Assembly (NCBI RefSeq): GCF_017916255.1
Contig: NZ_CP072827.1
Location: forward strand, 1,488,001-1,552,000
Direction of reading: 5' to 3'
DNA length: 64,000 bases
DNA from: Streptomyces mobaraensis NBRC 13819 = DSM 40847
Lineage (GTDB): Bacteria; Actinomycetota; Actinomycetes; Streptomycetales; Streptomycetaceae
Part shown: in pieces, positions 53,979-64,000 of the stretch
Layout: each line of letters opens with the position of its first letter
How positions within the stretch are numbered: the first letter of the stretch is position 1
Translations under genes and position numbers: made by a program
The notes under the pieces: generated by a model
Told to the model about the DNA's origin: nothing
Databases searched by the model: none
The model's input: only the letters and a program-made list of their open reading frames with translations

Positions 53979-54884
53979 TCAGCCCTGCTGACCGGCGCGC
54001 GACCGGCGGTAGAGGACGGCGCCGCCGAGCAGCAGGGCCGCGCTCGCGGCACCGGCCATGCCCAGCTCACCCGCGCCGGTGTGCGCGAGCTGGTCGTCCT
54101 TCTCCTCCACCGCGGCCTGCTGGGCCGGCCGGTGCGCGTCCTTCACCACGGCCACCGGGACGATCGGGCCCGAGGCGAGCGGACCCGGGGTGACGTGACC
54201 GGGCTTGTGCGCCGAGTGCTCGGCGGGCGGGTTGTGGTGCCCGGCCGGCCGGTGCTCGTCGCACGGCTTGTCCTTGTCCCCGTGAGTCCCGTGGTCCTCG
54301 TGGGTCCCGTGGTCCCCGTGCGGCTTGTCGGCCGGCGGGTGGTGGTGCGAGGGCTCGCCCGGGTGGTGCGGCCGGGTGTGGTCCGGGCCCCTCCCGTGGT
54401 CGTGGCCCCCGTTGATGCAGGCGTTGCCGAAGGTGGGGTTGGCGACGGCGGCCACGTCCACGGTGTTGCCGCAGGCGTTGACCGGGACGTCCACCGGAGC
54501 CTGGACGACGTTGCCGGAGGCGATGCCGGGCGAGCCGACGGCCGCGCCCTCCGCCCCGGCGCCACCGCCGTGGTGACCGCCGCCGTGCCCGTGGCCCTGG
54601 CCGTGGGATGCGTGGCCGCCGTGGCTGCCGTGACCCCCGTGACCACCGTTGACACAGGTGTTGCCGGAGGCGGGGTTGAGCGCTCCGACGACGTTCACGG
54701 TGTTGCCGCAGACGTTGACCGGCACGTGGACCGGCACCTGGACGGTGTTCCCGGACGCGACGCCCGGGGAGTGCGCGGCGGCGCCCTGGGCACCCGAGTC
54801 CGCGTACGCGTAGCCACCGGTCACGGCGAGCACGCTGCCCGCTGCCGCGACGGTGAGCAGGCCCTTTTTGGCGACCTGTCGCAT
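53979..54884 (-). CDS. chpC: Long chaplin with sortase signal
   Basis: Cell-wall-anchored hydrophobic surface protein that helps aerial hyphae become water-repellent. The 301-aa protein has a signal peptide (1-29), two chaplin domains (about 35-80 and 110-160) with cysteine pairs Cys59/Cys77 and Cys138/Cys156, a long His/Gly-rich linker (about 81-108 and 161-230), and a LAHTG sortase motif (266-270). A C-terminal membrane helix (274-292) and the basic tail YRRSRAG follow. It is the next gene after a short chaplin on the same strand. Assignment as the chpC orthologue is from its layout and neighbours. Confidence 0.93.
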   Translation of the reverse strand: MRQVAKKGLLTVAAAGSVLAVTGGYAYADSGAQGAAAHSPGVASGNTVQVPVHVPVNVCGNTVNVVGALNPASGNTCVNGGHGGHGSHGGHASHGQGHGHGGGHHGGGAGAEGAAVGSPGIASGNVVQAPVDVPVNACGNTVDVAAVANPTFGNACINGGHDHGRGPDHTRPHHPGEPSHHHPPADKPHGDHGTHEDHGTHGDKDKPCDEHRPAGHHNPPAEHSAHKPGHVTPGPLASGPIVPVAVVKDAHRPAQQAAVEEKDDQLAHTGAGELGMAGAASAALLLGGAVLYRRSRAGQQG

Positions 54885-55042: not shown

Positions 55043-55276
55043 TCACTTGTTGACGCAGATGTTGCCGTGCGTGGGGTTGAGCACCCCGACGACGTTGACC
55101 GTGTTGCTGCACAGGTTGACCGGAACCGAGACCGGCACCTGGACGACGTTGCCCGAGGCGACGCCGGGGCTGTTCACCGCCGCGCCCTGCGCCCCGCCGG
55201 CCGCTGCTGCCAGACCCGCGCCCGCGAGCACGAGACCACCGGTGGCAGCCGCGGTGGCGGCGACCTTCTTGAGCAT
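55043..55276 (-). CDS. chpH: Short chaplin
   Basis: A secreted amyloid-forming chaplin of 77 aa. It consists of a signal peptide (MLKKVAATAAATGGLVLAGA, cleavage near residue 27) and one chaplin domain with Cys56 and Cys74, ending GNICVNK. Short chaplins assemble into fibrils on aerial structures and are held by long chaplins. It lies 158 bp upstream of the long chaplin on the same strand. The spacer between them and the separate starts allow independent expression. Neighbour order suggests the chpH orthologue. Confidence 0.94.
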   Translation of the reverse strand: MLKKVAATAAATGGLVLAGAGLAAAAGGAQGAAVNSPGVASGNVVQVPVSVPVNLCSNTVNVVGVLNPTHGNICVNK

Positions 55277-56985: not shown

Positions 56986-57070
56986 GTCCGGGTGGCGGAA
57001 TGGCAGACGCGCTAGCTTGAGGTGCTAGTGCCCTTTATCGGGCGTGGGGGTTCAAGTCCCCCCTCGGACA
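56986..57070 (+). tRNA. tRNA-Leu (anticodon GAG)
   Basis: An 85-nt tRNA: acceptor GTCCGGG pairs with CTCGGAC, discriminator A at 57070, D-arm GGCGGAATGGCAGACGC, and anticodon stem CTAGC-TTGAGGT-GCTAG giving anticodon GAG. There is a long class II variable arm (CCCTTTATCGGGCGT region) and a T-arm GGGGGTTCAAGTCCCCC. The CCA end is not encoded. It is followed by a strong terminator and by a low-GC block on the opposite strand. Confidence 0.96.
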
Positions 57071-57075
57071 CACCG

Positions 57076-57157: not shown

Positions 57158-58012
57158 TCAGGCGCTCACCTCGGAGTGCACCGGGACAGGTGGGCGCACT
57201 CCGGTAAGCGCCTCTGCACGGGCTACGAGGTGGGGCGTAAGGTCGGGATACCAGCCACGGGCCACGGCTTGCAGCATCTCGGCCAGGGCCGCGAGTTCCC
57301 CGGTTCGGCCGGCGGGAGTGGCGAGGATCGGTGCGAACTCCTTGCGGATGCGGGCGGCTACGTCGGGAACGAGGAGGCTGTTGGCGTGGAGGAGTCCCGC
57401 GTCATAGCCGAAGGGCACCCGTCCCCACCGCTCCCAGTCCAGCAGGCACAGGGGCGTGGCGGTGAGGTTGCCCCAGTGCAGGTCACCGTGACCGGTCACC
57501 CGCTCCACCGTGGCGGGGGCGGGGATGCCGAGGAACTGGGGGAAGGCTCGTTCGATCCAGCCGTCCCGGACCGTCGTCTTCACTCCCTCCGCTTCGGCGA
57601 GGAGGGCAAGGGCGTGGCGGAGGTCCGCCCACCACTCGTCAGGCAGCCCCGGGTCGTGGTCGATGTCGGCCCGGTCGGGGGACACGATGGGTTGCGTGAG
57701 GTAGTCCAGGACTTCCGATTCGAAGGCCCACTCGCCGTCAGTCCAGTCATGCACCGCGTACAGGTGGGGGCGGGGCACGCCGTCGGGCACCAGCTCCGAG
57801 GCGCCGACGATGCCTTCCCCCGCCTTCCTGCCCGCGTTCCTCCTCGCCGTCCGGCTCACCCGTAGCCACCGGTCCCCCGCTCGGCGCCCGAGGGTGACAC
57901 CGAGGAAGCCCCACGCCGGCGGCCCCGTGCAGGTGAGGCCCAGTGCCTTGGCCGCCCGGTCGTGGGCGGCCTCCATCAGGGCCCGCACCTCCTCATTCAC
58001 CGGCGAGTTCAC
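57158..58012 (-). CDS. Aminoglycoside-phosphotransferase-type kinase
   Basis: A 284-aa APH-family kinase. Catalytic loop HGDLHWGNL has Asp177 and Asn182, and the metal-binding Asp192 is in LLDWERWGRVPFGYD. The N-lobe includes GDRWLRVSRTARRNAG. GTG 58012 has GGAGGG 6 nt upstream. It overlaps the aldo/keto reductase by 20 nt and is the last gene of the coupled unit starting with the 45-aa peptide. APH-type kinases phosphorylate small molecules or, in some peptide pathways, Ser/Thr. The target here is unknown. Confidence 0.9.
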   Translation of the reverse strand: MNSPVNEEVRALMEAAHDRAAKALGLTCTGPPAWGFLGVTLGRRAGDRWLRVSRTARRNAGRKAGEGIVGASELVPDGVPRPHLYAVHDWTDGEWAFESEVLDYLTQPIVSPDRADIDHDPGLPDEWWADLRHALALLAEAEGVKTTVRDGWIERAFPQFLGIPAPATVERVTGHGDLHWGNLTATPLCLLDWERWGRVPFGYDAGLLHANSLLVPDVAARIRKEFAPILATPAGRTGELAALAEMLQAVARGWYPDLTPHLVARAEALTGVRPPVPVHSEVSA

Positions 58013-58898
58013 CCGTCACCCTCCTGAGTTCCCGGACCGTCAGCGGCGCAGTCAGAGCCTTGGCCACATCGTCCCAGTGGTCGCGGGTGCTCGCGGAGGT
58101 GAGGACGGCATCGAGGCCGGGGCACGAGCCGGCGGCCAGCAGGGCAGCGGCTGCGGCCGACAGGCCGGGGCGGATGAGGTTCACCAGTTCGGATGTCATG
58201 GCGTCGAGGAGTTCGCCCCCGTGCAGGGGAGCGGAGCCGAACGTGATCAGCCCCGCATCCTTCGCCTGTACCAGTGGTCCGCCGCCGTTCAGGGCCTGTG
58301 CGATCGGGGCATCCATGATCAGGCTGACGGGCATCTGCAAGCCCGTGAAGTGATGCTCGGCGGAACCGGCCGCCTGCCGGGCGAGCGTGAGCAACTCGGG
58401 CACGCTGAACGCTCCGGAGGTCAGGCCCGACCAGGTGGCGACGCCGTACCCGCCGATCCGGCCCGCTTGGGCGAACTCCTCCAGCGCCGTGAAGGCTTCC
58501 CGTACACGCCCGTGCAGAGCGGAACGGTCAAGGCCGTGCCCGTGGTGCTCGGGGTTGTGCACGAACACCAGGTCCACGCGCCCGAGCGCGGCCAACGACC
58601 GCTCCGTCTGCCAGCGGACGAAGCCCCGCTCAAGGCTGTGCCTACCAGCCGCCTCTCCCCGGGTGAGCACGCCCTCAGCCAGGGCGGTGCGGCCTTGTTC
58701 CTCCGTGAAGAACCCTATCTTCGTGGCTACCCGCACGGTCGGGTACTCCCCGAGAACCGGGCGCAGTTCCTCCTGCGCCCGACCGTGGGCGTAGTTGGGT
58801 GCCGTGTCCACCCAGGGGCTACCGGCGGCCAGGGCGGTGCGTGCCGCCTGACTGACGGCACGCACGCGGTATGTCCCCAGGCAGAGCGCGGCGGTCAC
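57993..58898 (-). CDS. Aldo/keto reductase of the peptide-associated unit
   Basis: NADPH-dependent reductase of 301 aa. The catalytic tetrad is complete: Asp31 and Tyr36 in VDTAPNYAHG, Lys60 in VATKIGFF, and His114 in VFVHNPEHHG. GTG 58898 overlaps the stop of the oxygenase gene (GTGA) and the 3' end overlaps the kinase gene by 20 nt, so the three are translationally coupled. The coupling points to a shared pathway in which this enzyme reduces or oxidises an intermediate. Confidence 0.9.
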   Translation of the reverse strand: MTAALCLGTYRVRAVSQAARTALAAGSPWVDTAPNYAHGRAQEELRPVLGEYPTVRVATKIGFFTEEQGRTALAEGVLTRGEAAGRHSLERGFVRWQTERSLAALGRVDLVFVHNPEHHGHGLDRSALHGRVREAFTALEEFAQAGRIGGYGVATWSGLTSGAFSVPELLTLARQAAGSAEHHFTGLQMPVSLIMDAPIAQALNGGGPLVQAKDAGLITFGSAPLHGGELLDAMTSELVNLIRPGLSAAAAALLAAGSCPGLDAVLTSASTRDHWDDVAKALTAPLTVRELRRVTGELAGE

Positions 58899-60082
58899 AG
58901 CGCCGTCCCCACGACTGCAACGGCGTGGCCGTCGATGAGGACGGAGACCAGTTCGGCCACCTCCTTGACCTCCAGCCCGGCGGAGTCGGCGAGTTCGCCC
59001 AGCGTGGTCGGCTGGTTGGTCAGCAGCGTGCCCAGCGCGGGAGCGGCGGACTCGGCGAAGTCCCACGCGGTACCGGCCGCCGAGAAGGTGACTGTGCCCT
59101 GTTCGCGGTTGGCCGTCAGGCGGCCCCTCGGAGTGGTGAGCTTGACCGTGATGTCCCGCTGGGCGGGGAGTCCGCCCACGTAGGGCAGGGACGGGATCGC
59201 GTGGCCCAGGTCCGTCGTGTCGATCGACTCTGCCCACCGCTCCACGAGGCGCGGGTCCGCCATCATGTCGGCCACCTCACGGCGCAGCGCGTCGGTGAAG
59301 TCCGCCTGTTCCGTCAGCGAGCCGAAGCGCGGGATGTCCCTGCGGAGCGCGAGGGACGCCCGAAGCTGGTCGACGACCCAGAGCATCAGGTCAGCGCCCG
59401 TGTGCGGGACCATCCCGAACGTGAGGTGAAGGGATTCTGTCCCCTGGTCAGCGGTGACCGAGTGCCACCAGCCGCGCGGCAGGTAGAGCACGTCACCCGG
59501 GGACATAACGAGGTCCGCCAATGGGTCGCTCTCCGGCTCCTCCGGCGACTCCACGTCCCGGAAGGTGGGCCCTTCACGGGTCATCCCCCACAGGCGCCAC
59601 CGCTTCGAGCCGTGCAGTTGGACTACGACCACATCGTGGTCGTCCCAGTGCCGGCCGAAACCCTCCCGCTCGGTCCACGAGGCGTACACGTTGGCCTGCA
59701 CGGAAGTCCCGAGGAAGCGTTCCAATCCCTCCGCAGCCGCTCCCACGGAGGGGTGGATCTTCTCCACCGCGTCCAGGACCAGCGACGCCCCGTCCCTGAG
59801 CTGGGCGTGGAAGTCGGACGGCTGGATGCGGGACCAGGTGACCGCTCGGCGGTTCGTGGTCGGGATCGCGTAGCGGTACAGCGGGACCGTCTCGCCGTCG
59901 ACCGACAGGCGCAGCCGGGGCGGCTCCAGCCGCTGCGTGGCGATGATCCGGTTCAGGTCATCCCAGGAGAACATCCCTGCCGTGTCGGCGACCCCGGGGA
60001 AGTGCGCGTAGGAGCGGTGGTACGTCTGGGCGAGGAACTTGTCCCCGCCCAGACGCCCCGCCCACGAGGCTGCGTCAAGCAA
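58895..60082 (-). CDS. JmjC/cupin Fe(II)-2-oxoglutarate oxygenase
   Basis: A 395-aa oxygenase of the cupin_4 group that includes bacterial and human ribosomal oxygenases, which hydroxylate protein side chains. Iron ligands are His145 and Asp147 in FGRHWDDHDVV and His207 in LPRGWWHSV, and Lys160 in HGSKRWRLWG may contact 2-oxoglutarate. The C-terminal half (about 235-395) has a helical dimerisation part and a winged-helix-like end (TLGELADSAGLEVKEVAELV). TTG 60082 is chosen because GGGAG lies 8 nt upstream and follows the peptide stop by 14 nt. It is coupled to the aldo/keto reductase through GTGA. Confidence 0.9.
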   Translation of the reverse strand: MLDAASWAGRLGGDKFLAQTYHRSYAHFPGVADTAGMFSWDDLNRIIATQRLEPPRLRLSVDGETVPLYRYAIPTTNRRAVTWSRIQPSDFHAQLRDGASLVLDAVEKIHPSVGAAAEGLERFLGTSVQANVYASWTEREGFGRHWDDHDVVVVQLHGSKRWRLWGMTREGPTFRDVESPEEPESDPLADLVMSPGDVLYLPRGWWHSVTADQGTESLHLTFGMVPHTGADLMLWVVDQLRASLALRRDIPRFGSLTEQADFTDALRREVADMMADPRLVERWAESIDTTDLGHAIPSLPYVGGLPAQRDITVKLTTPRGRLTANREQGTVTFSAAGTAWDFAESAAPALGTLLTNQPTTLGELADSAGLEVKEVAELVSVLIDGHAVAVVGTAL

Positions 60083-60096
60083 CGTGGGCGCTCCCG

Positions 60097-60234
60097 TCAG
60101 TCGTTGCCGTCGGAACGGCCACTGCTGACGTCGGATTCCTGCTCGGCACGGGTGCGCGCGGCCGCGATCTTCCGCTTCGCGACGAGCAGGCCACCCCCCT
60201 CGGGGGTCACCGAAGTGGTGTTCTCTTCCACCAT
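60097..60234 (-). CDS. 45-aa peptide at the head of the JmjC-AKR-kinase unit
   Basis: A 45-aa polypeptide from ATG 60234 (GAGAGG 7 nt upstream). It begins MVEENTTSVTPEGGGLLVAK, has a basic helical middle (RKIAAARTRAEQE) and ends with a Ser/Asp/Gly tail (SDVSSGRSDGND). It has no signal peptide, Cys or membrane segment. Only 14 bp separate its stop from the oxygenase start. Size, polar composition and position fit a precursor peptide for the following oxygenase, reductase and kinase, but this is inference; it might instead be a small regulatory or partner protein. I do not recognise the family. Confidence 0.75.
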   Translation of the reverse strand: MVEENTTSVTPEGGGLLVAKRKIAAARTRAEQESDVSSGRSDGND

Positions 60235-60306
60235 CGGACTACCTCTCTTCTCGGGAACTCCCACCGGGAATCCGGCGGGAGGCATCAGAGACAGCGGCCA
60301 ATGCGG

Positions 60307-60420
60307 TTACCAAAGAGCCACGGCGAGAACCAGGGCACAGCCGCCGAGGATCGCGGCCAGGTAGAGCGGCCCCGCGTACCGGCCAAAGTGGCGCAGCACC
60401 CACAGGCCCAAGCCACCCAT
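60307..60420 (-). CDS. 37-aa single-helix membrane peptide
   Basis: A short ORF from ATG 60420 whose start overlaps the stop of the upstream 68-aa gene (TGATG). The product is a basic start (LRHFGRYAG) followed by one hydrophobic helix (PLYLAAILGGCALVLAVALW) ending at the stop. The overlap and strongly non-random composition support a real gene. The function is unknown; similar tiny membrane proteins occur in mobile-element gene clusters. Confidence 0.6.
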   Translation of the reverse strand: MGGLGLWVLRHFGRYAGPLYLAAILGGCALVLAVALW

Positions 60421-60626
60421 CACGTCGCCTTCGGCTCCACCGCCACGGGGCGGAGAGCACTGGCAGGCAACGAGCTGCGGCCCGTGCACCGAGGGCACCC
60501 GCACGGCGGGTACTTGGTCGGCGAACCCAGGATCACCGCATTGCGCGGCTCCACCTGCACCTCACGCACCGGGCCGTACGTCCGGCCGCCGTCGTACGAC
60601 ACCCGCAGAGTCATACGCCCGGTCAC
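60420..60626 (-). CDS. 68-aa Cys-containing protein
   Basis: A 68-aa ORF from GTG 60626 (Met5 is an alternative). It begins MTGRMTLRVSYDGGRTYGPV and has a C-G-C-P-R-C cluster (Cys43, Cys45, Cys48) that could bind a metal. Its start overlaps the preceding 33-aa ORF by GTGA and its stop overlaps the next ORF by TGATG. I do not recognise the family. Confidence 0.65.
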   Translation of the reverse strand: MTGRMTLRVSYDGGRTYGPVREVQVEPRNAVILGSPTKYPPCGCPRCTGRSSLPASALRPVAVEPKAT

Positions 60627-60724
60627 GAGCGCACACCACCATCAGGGCCGAACGCCCGCCGGTACTCCAGCCCCCGACCTACGCCGTAGCGCACCCGCTC
60701 TTCGTTTCGCTCGGCCGCTGTCAT
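60623..60724 (-). CDS. Possible 33-aa ORF
   Basis: ATG 60724 opens MTAAERNEERVRYGVGRGLE and ends RAFGPDGGVRS, with its TGA overlapping the GTG of the 68-aa gene. An ATG at 60736 would add four residues. The upstream ribosome-binding site is weak, so support rests on the overlap and charged composition. Confidence 0.4.
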   Translation of the reverse strand: MTAAERNEERVRYGVGRGLEYRRAFGPDGGVRS

Positions 60725-60786
60725 GGGGGAAATCATTGGCCCAGAAATCGGCGGCTGTGTAGTTCTTTCCCGTCATGGACTAAAGA

Positions 60787-61620
60787 TCATGAACGGCAGG
60801 CGGCAGCCCACTCCGTCAACAAGGCTCGCGCTTCGGCCCCGAACAGCGCGTACCCCTCCAGTGTCGAGAACAGTGCCAAATGCATTTCGATGTCGCGTGG
60901 ATCTCTCAGGATCACGACACCGGTGGTGTTCTCCACAGTGGCCAGGGTGTTGTCGTAGACAGTGAAGGTGTCCATCGGAGCCATGGGCTTGTACCCCGCG
61001 ATTGGGATGACACCGAGCTTCACATTCGGCAGGTGGGTCAGTGAGGCCAGCCGGTCAATCTGCATCGCCATCGCGGCCGGGGGCAGGAGCGGCCACCTCA
61101 CGGCCTGTTCGGTGAGGATGAAGGTGAACCGCTTCTTCGTGTCGTAAAGAACCTCCTGCCGCTCCAACTTCCTCGCGATCGTCTTAGTGACATCAGCTGG
61201 GGAATGGGCGAGACTGGCGCGGATGTACTCAGGGGTGGACAGCAGTCCCGTAATCATCGAGAGCAGGAAGAAACGGAACTCGGTAGAGGAGGATTCGAGC
61301 GCGGCAAGTTCGGTCTGCTTCCTCTCCAGCCCCCTTCGCCGCAGCGAGCGCAGATCTTGCCACTCGGTGTTGGCCAGCCTCGCGAGGGCAATGACCTCCT
61401 CGATGACCTCGGGCGGAGCAACGACAGCCCGGAGGATTCTCTCCAGGTCGAGCAGGCTCGGTTGCGCTTTCCCGTTCTCGATCCGACTGATCTTCGATTG
61501 GGACATGTTGCAACGCCGAGCGAGCCGGTCCCCAGTGAGGCCGGCTCGCTTGCGTAGTTCTTTCAGCAGGGCGGCCAATTCTTGCTTCGGCTGCCCCGGC
61601 TGTAACGGGTCGAACGTCAC
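60787..61620 (-). CDS. XRE-family regulator with DUF5753
   Basis: A 277-aa DNA-binding protein. The N-terminal Cro/C1-type helix-turn-helix is at about residues 16-70 (LTGDRLARRCNMSQSKISRI), followed by the DUF5753 domain (about 100-270; TGLLSTPEYIRASLAHSPAD; DTFTVYDNTLATVENTTGVV). GTG 61620 overlaps the DUF6879 stop by GTGA; an upstream in-frame start at 61674 is not needed. Such regulators are abundant in streptomycetes and often pair with small companion proteins. It probably controls the genes downstream on the same strand. Confidence 0.92.
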   Translation of the reverse strand: MTFDPLQPGQPKQELAALLKELRKRAGLTGDRLARRCNMSQSKISRIENGKAQPSLLDLERILRAVVAPPEVIEEVIALARLANTEWQDLRSLRRRGLERKQTELAALESSSTEFRFFLLSMITGLLSTPEYIRASLAHSPADVTKTIARKLERQEVLYDTKKRFTFILTEQAVRWPLLPPAAMAMQIDRLASLTHLPNVKLGVIPIAGYKPMAPMDTFTVYDNTLATVENTTGVVILRDPRDIEMHLALFSTLEGYALFGAEARALLTEWAAACRS

Positions 61621-62129
61621 CCGCTCACGTACTCCAGGAATGGAACCGATTCGGCAACGGCAATCCGCTTCCACTGCCGGTACGGCTCAGGATCACCCTC
61701 GTACAGTTCCCGGTTGATCTGCGTCCCGTCCGCCCGGTAGTTCATCAGGACCACCTTGGACTCATCGAACATCCAGAAGTCCTGATCCGGAAGCCCGGGG
61801 TTCTCTCGGTCGGTGAGGTCGAGAATGCGGATACCCTCGCCCGCCTTCACATGGTGCCGGTAGTAATACTCGAACTCGAACCGGAGGTAATCGGAGAGCG
61901 GGCGAGTCACGACGTGCACCCTGCCGACGCTCTTCCCTTCCGAGGCCCATTGCCGAATCTCGTCCATCCAGGCCGACATATAATCGTCCGGGGATTTCTC
62001 CCCGGCGAGGAAGCGCTTCAGCCTCTCTGCTTCCTGCGGCACGGTGTAGACGGGCAGCGTTTCCAGCCGCCACGCCTCACGCTCCATGGAATCGAAGCAG
62101 CCATTCCACGCGTCACCATCCAAGTGCAC
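61617..62129 (-). CDS. DUF6879-family protein
   Basis: A 170-aa protein of a family commonly next to XRE/DUF5753 regulators. GTG 62129 follows GGGAGGCGTTCC and overlaps the 69-aa gene by 17 nt. Segments include GCFDSMEREAWRLETLPVYT, RVHVVTRPLSDYLRFEFEYY and DQDFWMFDESKVVLMNYRAD. No enzymatic motif is apparent; a sensor or partner role for the regulator is inferred. It is co-translated with both neighbours. Confidence 0.88.
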   Translation of the reverse strand: MHLDGDAWNGCFDSMEREAWRLETLPVYTVPQEAERLKRFLAGEKSPDDYMSAWMDEIRQWASEGKSVGRVHVVTRPLSDYLRFEFEYYYRHHVKAGEGIRILDLTDRENPGLPDQDFWMFDESKVVLMNYRADGTQINRELYEGDPEPYRQWKRIAVAESVPFLEYVSG

Positions 62130-62521: not shown

Positions 62522-64000
62522 TCAGTTCAAGGGCACCCGCGCCACCGGTGCGAAGGTGGTGTCCGTGAGGAGGGCGCGGCAGCGGAAGCGTTGGATTTTG
62601 CCGCTGGGGGTCTTGGGGAGGACGCCTCGGGGGAGGAAGAGGCATTCGGAGAGGGCCACGCCGGCCTTTTCCAGGGCCAGGGTGGCGGCCTCTTCGGCGA
62701 TGGGGCGGAAGTCCTTGGGGTTGCCCTGGGGTTCGACCATGAGGACGAGGCGGGTGGCGCCCGTGTCGCCGGCGTCCACCAGTGCCGCGCAGCCCTTGCG
62801 GATGTTGCGCATGGAGTCGACGGCCGACTCGATCTCCGTGGCATAGACCTTGCGGCCGCCGACCGAGAGCATGTCGTCGGCCCGGCCGAGGACGTACAGC
62901 TCGCCGTCGTGGAGGAAGCCGAGGTCGCCGGTGCGCAGCCGGCCGTCGGGGAAGCGTTCGGCGGTGCGGGCCGGGTCGGCGTAGTAGCCCTGGGCGAGGC
63001 TGGGCGAGGCCACCTCGATCTCGGCCACGCCGCCGGAGGCGCCGGCCCGGATCTCCACGCCCGGGAGGGGGACGCCGTTGGAGACGAGGCGGGTGGCGTG
63101 GGGGTCGTCCGGGGCGGTTTCCACCGCCTTGCCCTCCACCAGGGACGGGCCGTGGAAGGTGAGGGCCCGGGGCGCCTGGGCCCAGGGTTTGCCCGCCACG
63201 GCCAGCGTGGCCTCGGCCATGCCGTAGGCGGGCTGGAACGCCGTGTCGGTGAGGCCGAAGGGGCGGAACGCGGCCGTGGCGGTGGCCAGGGTGTCCCAGT
63301 CGACGCGTTCGGCGCCGATCACCGCCGCTCGGAGGCGCAGTGGTTTGGGGAGGGTGCCCCTCCCCTGGGCCCGGGCCGCCAGGTAGACGGCCGTGCTGGT
63401 GCCCGCCGTCATGGTGGCCTCGTACTCCGACATGTCGCGGAACCAGGACCGGGGCGCGAGGCCGAACCGGTCCGGCGTGGACAGGACGAAGTGGAAGTCG
63501 TACGCCCAGGAGTAGAGCAGGCAGCCGAACATGCCCATGTCGTGGGAGAGCGGCAGCCAGGACGCGACGGTGTCGGCGCCGGGGCGGCCGCCCGTCAGGT
63601 GCAGGATGATCTCCAACTGGCGTTCGATGGCACGGGTGGTGAGGGCGCAGCCCTTGGGGGTGCTGGTGCTGCCCGAGGAGTACTGGATGAAGGCCAGGTC
63701 GTCCCGGCCCGGTGGGGTCGGTTCGAAGGAAGCGGGGCCTCCGGCTCGTAGCGTCGTCCAGCCCGTGACGGGGAGGGACGCGGTCAGCTCGGCCGGGAGC
63801 GTCGCCGCTATCCAGTCGTCGGCCAGCAGGAGGACGGGGTCCAGCCGGGCGGTGAGGGCGACGAGTTGGTCCCCGTACGCCTGCCGGCTCTGGCCGCGGG
63901 TGGGCAGCGGGAGGGAGGCGACGGCGCCGCCCGCCAGCCAGGTGGCGAGCAGGCCGCGGACGGTGTCGGGGGTGTTGGTGAGGATGCAGGCGACGCGGGT
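62522..64000 (-). CDS. Fatty-acyl-AMP-ligase-like adenylating enzyme, N-terminus outside window
   Basis: C-terminal 492 codons of an ANL-superfamily enzyme that activates fatty acids as acyl adenylates, usually for transfer to carrier proteins or CoA. The P-loop-like motif is IQYSSGSTSTPKG, followed by DTVASWLPLSHDMGMFGCLL and GMAEATLAVAG. The adenylation core ends with LRTGDLGFLHDGELYVLGRA, and the C-terminal domain has LPKTPSGKIQRFRCRALL with the catalytic Lys. The LSHDMG motif is typical of fatty-acyl-AMP ligases. The frame is open to the window edge. Confidence 0.9.
   Translation of the reverse strand, partial: TRVACILTNTPDTVRGLLATWLAGGAVASLPLPTRGQSRQAYGDQLVALTARLDPVLLLADDWIAATLPAELTASLPVTGWTTLRAGGPASFEPTPPGRDDLAFIQYSSGSTSTPKGCALTTRAIERQLEIILHLTGGRPGADTVASWLPLSHDMGMFGCLLYSWAYDFHFVLSTPDRFGLAPRSWFRDMSEYEATMTAGTSTAVYLAARAQGRGTLPKPLRLRAAVIGAERVDWDTLATATAAFRPFGLTDTAFQPAYGMAEATLAVAGKPWAQAPRALTFHGPSLVEGKAVETAPDDPHATRLVSNGVPLPGVEIRAGASGGVAEIEVASPSLAQGYYADPARTAERFPDGRLRTGDLGFLHDGELYVLGRADDMLSVGGRKVYATEIESAVDSMRNIRKGCAALVDAGDTGATRLVLMVEPQGNPKDFRPIAEEAATLALEKAGVALSECLFLPRGVLPKTPSGKIQRFRCRALLTDTTFAPVARVPLN

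Follow-up and report, generated by a model that had tools for sequence, protein, structure and literature searches.

What a short open reading frame (ORF) contributes at the head of an enzyme operon is the question raised by a four-gene unit of Streptomyces mobaraensis NBRC 13819 = DSM 40847, located in the 64,000-nucleotide stretch of contig NZ_CP072827.1 (positions 1,488,001 to 1,552,000) that we refer to as the window. The ORF encodes a peptide of 45 residues and precedes genes for a ROX-like JmjC Fe(II)/2-oxoglutarate oxygenase, an aldo/keto reductase (AKR) and an APH-fold kinase-like protein (Table 1). We propose that the unit is probably a cassette of the kind that produces ribosomally synthesized and post-translationally modified peptides (RiPPs), in which the 45-residue product would be the precursor, carrying a leader, and the JmjC enzyme would hydroxylate its core before the AKR and the APH act; the class itself is plausibly new. 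That a ribosomally made and post-translationally modified peptide is involved had been suggested in a preliminary description of this DNA, and the genomic comparisons on which our proposal rests support the suggestion.

Conservation of the short gene and its tie to the JmjC gene

The 45-residue ORF is confirmed as a conserved, real gene. Scanning genome contigs with the JmjC protein of the window yielded 79 distinct loci, drawn from the best 80 of 176 relatives, and a short ORF ending in D-x(1-5)-[GS]-x(1-3)-D-x-N-D was found upstream of the JmjC gene in 78 of them, showing that its reading frame is conserved between strains; at one locus the JmjC gene is split in two pieces (L039) and at another the peptide is reduced to its end, GKGDGND (L078). 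The AKR is present in 76 of the 79 loci, and the APH lies downstream in all 79. The layout given in the preliminary description is borne out by the coordinates in every respect: 14 nt separate the stop of the 45-residue ORF from the JmjC start, the JmjC stop and the GTG start of the AKR overlap by 4 nt as GTGA, and the AKR and APH genes overlap by 20 nt. The 4-nt overlap is kept in 74 of the 76 loci that have an AKR.

The peptide of the window consists of a leader with GLLVAKRKIAAARTR and an acidic C-terminal core, SDVSSGRSDGND, and it matched no Pfam or NCBIfam family. Across 73 unique peptides one L and the residues D, G, D, N and D are invariant, S and A-A-R-x-R nearly so, and the core follows the pattern S-D-x(3-4)-G-x-[ST]-D-x-N-D. 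The codon-aligned ratio of nonsynonymous to synonymous polymorphism (pN/pS) is 0.30 in the group of close relatives (0.16 for the part from the invariant Leu onward) and 0.55 in the middle group (0.37 over the same part).

A profile built from 26 of the 78 peptides, the one from this genome counted in (profile A1), retrieved 475 database proteins at E ≤1, and among the matches listed (120) all are named hypothetical or uncharacterized protein. Over 297 Streptomycetaceae genomes the profile gave 70 matches in 60 genomes. A JmjC match lies directly downstream on the same strand in 69 of the 70, a count that is not an independent sample beside the 78 of 79 loci because the profile was built from JmjC-adjacent peptides and the two sets share genomes; the distance between the paired matches has a median of 29 nt (range 17-284), and the single peptide match that has no downstream JmjC is also the weakest, at E 8e-4. 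The expectation that the peptide generally occurs directly upstream of this JmjC enzyme is thus satisfied from both directions. The JmjC side of the genome survey was confined to the 79 top-scoring rows; the lower-ranking rows excluded from it comprise generic JmjC proteins and a second subfamily.

This second subfamily (type 2) is represented in the same genome by a unit (L082, L182; G000:C1:4043539-4044504) whose JmjC is 32% identical to that of the window. Sixteen type-2 loci were hand-picked among JmjC rows of 31-36% identity, and every one of them has a short ORF, which stops 77-104 nt short of the extrapolated start of the JmjC; an AKR is found in 14 of the 16 and a convergent APH in 15. 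The type-2 peptides follow the pattern [DG]L[LV]xxVExLxxVxDR...SD...GD...DG, and their profile and that of type 1 align only across residues 1-34 (probability 91, P 1.1e-6). The two peptide subfamilies, then, are related in the leader and differ at the C-terminus, as in a RiPP family.

Table 1. Genes of the unit and the adjacent tRNA gene, in window positions.
Feature	Position	Strand	Length	Start	Basis
Precursor peptide ORF (putative)	60097..60234	minus	45 aa	ATG, preceded by GAGAGG	translation
JmjC (ROX-like) Fe(II)/2-oxoglutarate oxygenase	58895..60082	minus	395 aa	TTG, preceded by GGGAG	PF08007
Aldo/keto reductase (AKR)	57993..58898	minus	301 aa	GTG	PF00248
APH-fold kinase-like protein	57158..58012	minus	284 aa		PF01636, below cut-off
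tRNA-Leu (gag)	56986-57071

Enzymes, composition and spread of the unit

None of the four proteins of the unit reached the cut-off of any NCBIfam family, and their assignment comes from Pfam: JmjC_2 (PF08007) at 1.1e-30, Aldo_ket_red (PF00248) at 3.1e-15 and APH (PF01636) at 7.7e-4. The JmjC protein has the JmjC_2 domain with the HxD...H motif of the ROX family, and its closest solved structures in the PDB are NO66, MINA, YxbC and RoxA. The triad that the preliminary description had reported as intact, H145, D147 and H207, is invariant in the 32 aligned JmjC proteins, a picked sample. Residues 300-395 are predicted to form a winged-helix-like domain; ROXA-like_wH (PF20514) was matched by 9 of 19 C-terminal JmjC pieces, that of the window itself being without a match.

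The AKR, also described earlier as catalytically complete, has its tetrad D33, Y38, K62 and H116 invariant in 76 rows (the window and 75 loci). The possibility that it acts on the Ser/Thr that precedes the core's second Asp was considered and is no more than hinted at. That position is Ser/Thr in 71 of the 73 unique peptides, the exceptions being L067 and L077, and seven rows without an AKR have Gly there (L067, L077, L078, L086 and L245-L247, with L078 and L086 representing one contig). These rows form one clade, amounting to one change on the tree, and L260 has Gly there together with an intact AKR, so that the link is no more than a hint; one further locus, L173, seems to lack the AKR as well, its peptide being obscured by the end of the contig.

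The APH of the window scores 19.7 bits against the curated Pfam cut-off of 23.2 and so falls short of it. Its HxD....N and D motif is present all the same, with H175, D177, E194 and R51 invariant and N182 and D192 conserved at 99% over 76 rows. For the APH profile alignment a picked sample of 28 rows was used.

When the neighbourhoods of 22 diverse loci among the 79 were compared, no further gene was common to all; the largest other gene cluster spans 7 loci, and the unidentified clusters number 7, 5, 4, 3 and 3 loci, the one with 5 lying antisense to the AKR. Among the records of a plasmid collection, 80 match the JmjC, 36 of them covering at least 80% of it, and among the matches listed (20) all are from Streptomyces. 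The three plasmids examined carry, one after the other, the peptide, a cupin protein, an AKR and a hypothetical protein, with the peptide annotated as a coding sequence by NCBI. There are two to three copies per genome, and the present genome has four JmjC genes, including a second type-1 unit (L081; G000:C1:7036437-7039465) whose JmjC is 50% identical and which has its own peptide (core SDGGGTGKSDSND), AKR and APH. The four genes are best read as a compact, mobile cassette. A role in anti-phage defence was rejected, since PADLOC matched none of the four proteins and no phage record matched the JmjC.

Close relatives often have the unit between an XRE-DUF5753/DUF6879 pair and tRNA-Leu (gag), which in the window corresponds to positions 57158-61674 and suggests a variable region. 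The XRE-DUF5753 and DUF6879 genes, which lie upstream, were considered as members of the unit and rejected: the XRE gene exceeds 100 bits in only 27 of the 79 loci, and the pair therefore lies outside it. Elsewhere in the window, two minus-strand ORFs read like chaplins, the longer (53979-54884) having a C-terminus that resembles LAHTG and the other being short (55043-55276), and a third ORF on the minus strand, at 62522-63616, resembles an acyl-AMP ligase, likewise by reading.

Proposed route and competing explanations

In the route we propose, the 45-residue ORF would encode the precursor, with the segment GLLVAxRxIxAARxR as its leader, which is probably bound by the JmjC enzyme through its C-terminal winged helix or its active-site groove. 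The JmjC would hydroxylate a side chain within the acidic core, the invariant Asp and Asn residues being the likeliest targets; because D, D, N and D are invariant, beta-hydroxy-Asp or -Asn would be the simplest product. The AKR may next act on a carbonyl or an alcohol of the core, and the APH may either phosphorylate a hydroxyl as a tailoring step or phosphorylate and disarm the product as self-protection. We see about an even chance for a broader picture, namely a new RiPP class headed by a ROX-like JmjC. Under this picture a plasmid-spread cassette of four genes would yield a peptide that is acidic and hydroxylated, may also carry phosphate and has Asp and Asn in a near-invariant arrangement; beta-hydroxy-Asp groups could make it a metal ligand of ribosomal origin, and the APH subfamily would be a tailoring or immunity kinase shared by several kinds of Streptomycetaceae RiPP.

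A number of observations weigh against the proposal. Within the type-1 subfamily it is the C-terminal end that is conserved, indeed nearly fixed, and the N-terminus that varies, unlike a textbook RiPP and most RiPP cores; the conserved leader and variable core for which the preliminary description proposed to look are seen between the two subfamilies and not within type 1. In the most divergent group of peptides the codon-aligned pN/pS is 0.85 (0.84 from the invariant Leu to the end), rising to 1.08 when gaps are not handled, and this group alone would therefore not prove selection on the protein. Ten of the 79 survey JmjC rows are without a profile-A1 peptide: L172, L173 and G649:C29 are truncated or at a contig end, L178 has a broken JmjC and AKR, L171 has only the GKGDGND end, and the remaining five (L174-L177, L179), at 35-39% identity, have no AKR or APH in the fetched flanks. 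Three of the 79 loci lack the AKR. No protease or exporter is common to the 22 loci compared, and the product may therefore stay inside or use general ones. The second PDB match of the winged-helix profile, TfuB1, a lasso-peptide RRE, is not significant (E 0.16), and R51 of the APH stands at a position that is presumably Lys in APH kinases. Lastly, of 105 APH matches with at least 280 bits in the 297 genomes, 73 follow a JmjC and 32 do not, and for 16 of these 32 no partner is recognisable.

Occurrence of the enzymes away from the short ORF, which the preliminary description would have counted against a peptide product, is seen in part, and for the APH gene only. Seven of the 32 JmjC-less APH genes, however, adjoin other RiPP-type enzymes. 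Five lie directly after a Lant_dehydr_C gene (L220, L221, L225, L227, L230), with a LanC-like gene in four, an arrangement of the class I lanthipeptide type; that of L202 comes after a graspetide-type methyltransferase (TIGR04188, scoring 343 bits where the cut-off is 380) and a Gly/Asp-rich ORF of 59 aa; and that of L226 comes after an FxLD-system methyltransferase above cut-off, L211 being similar by reading. Among five weaker APH matches two (L236, L237) lie behind a radical SAM/SPASM protein. Because it adjoins lantibiotic-type dehydratase, graspetide-type, FxLD-type and radical SAM/SPASM genes, the APH subfamily is, as judged by its neighbours, RiPP-associated beyond the JmjC unit. The radical SAM/SPASM proteins of L236 and L237 carry Cys- and Pro-rich tails.

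A variant of the proposal, which we entertain tentatively as a real possibility, holds that the APH is there for self-protection, phosphorylating and inactivating the product of the JmjC and the AKR, and that the JmjC-less copies are orphan immunity genes. In addition to the existence of the 32 such copies, seven of them lie behind the unit's AKR, whole or reduced to its 3' part, and two retain a C-terminal JmjC piece (L218 does both), as if the producer genes had been lost. An APH that outlives the producer genes would be in keeping with immunity, but its position as the last gene explains this too, since loss from the 5' side leaves the APH anyway; 72 of 74 JmjC rows retain the APH, which also fits a tailoring role. 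At L218 (1883-3118 on the APH-oriented strand) the JmjC C-terminal domain is fused behind a Pfam-less ORF resembling a nucleotidyltransferase, which may be a deletion fusion.

Two further explanations deny that the peptide is a substrate. According to one, it is a small partner or anchor of a JmjC enzyme whose substrate is a different protein, for instance one of the ribosome, in keeping with the ribosomal-oxygenase fold group to which the JmjC belongs and with the near inseparability of peptide and enzyme. We think this unlikely, since the 26 generic ROX-like JmjC genes taken from a phylum sample (L087-L112) have no AKR or APH in their short flanks in any of the 26 cases, and carriage on plasmids and two to three copies per genome fit an accessory product better than care of the ribosome. 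According to the other, the ORF encodes a regulatory nascent peptide whose conserved end stalls ribosomes and so controls translation of the JmjC operon. The conserved residues do stand directly before the stop codon, with the JmjC start close behind, and yet the upstream helical half is equally conserved in the close group, type 2 retains the leader part and changes the end, and the constant AKR and APH are left unexplained, which together make such a regulator quite improbable. Dehydration by a kinase and a lyase, as in class V lanthipeptides or thioamitides, where the APH-like CaoK phosphorylates Ser/Thr of the precursor before elimination (PMC9486802, in the portion available), can hardly apply and we rejected identity with these classes, as no lyase is common to the 22 loci, the genome has no HopA1 (PF17914) match and Cys is absent from all 78 peptides.

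Relation to known systems

The proposed RiPP cassette, if real, would place at the head of a class of peptide natural products an oxygenase family whose known roles lie mainly in ribosome and chromatin biology. The class would be common in Streptomycetaceae (peptide matches in 60 of 297 genomes), and its members are annotated as hypothetical protein, cupin protein or reductase in the records examined. The four genes occupy about 3 kb, making a direct co-expression test feasible, and the APH-fold subfamily, which is met repeatedly next to other RiPP enzymes, offers a way to find further examples. Searches of open-licence PubMed Central papers listed no description of a cassette that combines such a peptide with JmjC, AKR and APH, and the systems that come closest each share a part of it.

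On the side of the kinase, LanK, CaoK, LxmK and TvaC are likewise APH-like and work on the precursor peptides of Streptomyces RiPPs, a likeness of description and not of compared sequence (PMC9486802 and PMC9415263, both as partial texts), and kintamdin involves a phosphotransferase, KinD, together with KinH, a homologue that is inactive (PMC9415263, same portion). From the kinases of class V lanthipeptides and thioamitides the present unit differs in having no lyase partner and a peptide free of Cys.

On the side of the oxygenase, the accessible part of PMC12707348 reports that BipG, a JmjC enzyme, gamma-hydroxylates Orn of the biphenomycin RiPP precursor in vitro, and JmjC and cupin-like proteins are named in biphenomycin-type clusters in the corresponding part of PMC12257519. 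These clusters (bip, bpm and pbs, with the JmjC proteins BipG and BpmG and the cupin-like PbsQ) thus resemble our proposal in setting a JmjC 2-oxoglutarate oxygenase on a ribosomal precursor; as far as those parts describe them, they carry MNIO, B12-radical SAM, arginase and peptidase genes, whereas the present unit has an AKR and an APH and an acidic core without Phe-Arg-Phe. A single sentence in the available text of PMC12710340 concerns RRE-bearing proteins of fish and algae and states that their bacterial JmjC homologues occur in RiPP-like contexts. Such JmjC-RRE proteins share with ours PF08007 and a C-terminal winged-helix-like domain, and the sentence, which gives no precursor, AKR, APH or gene order, may or may not mean this family. 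The ribosomal oxygenases NO66, MINA and RoxA, finally, have in common with the JmjC of the unit its fold, the HxD...H triad and, in part, a ROXA-type C-terminal winged helix, and what sets the unit apart from them is the dedicated short peptide, the AKR and the APH within its operon.

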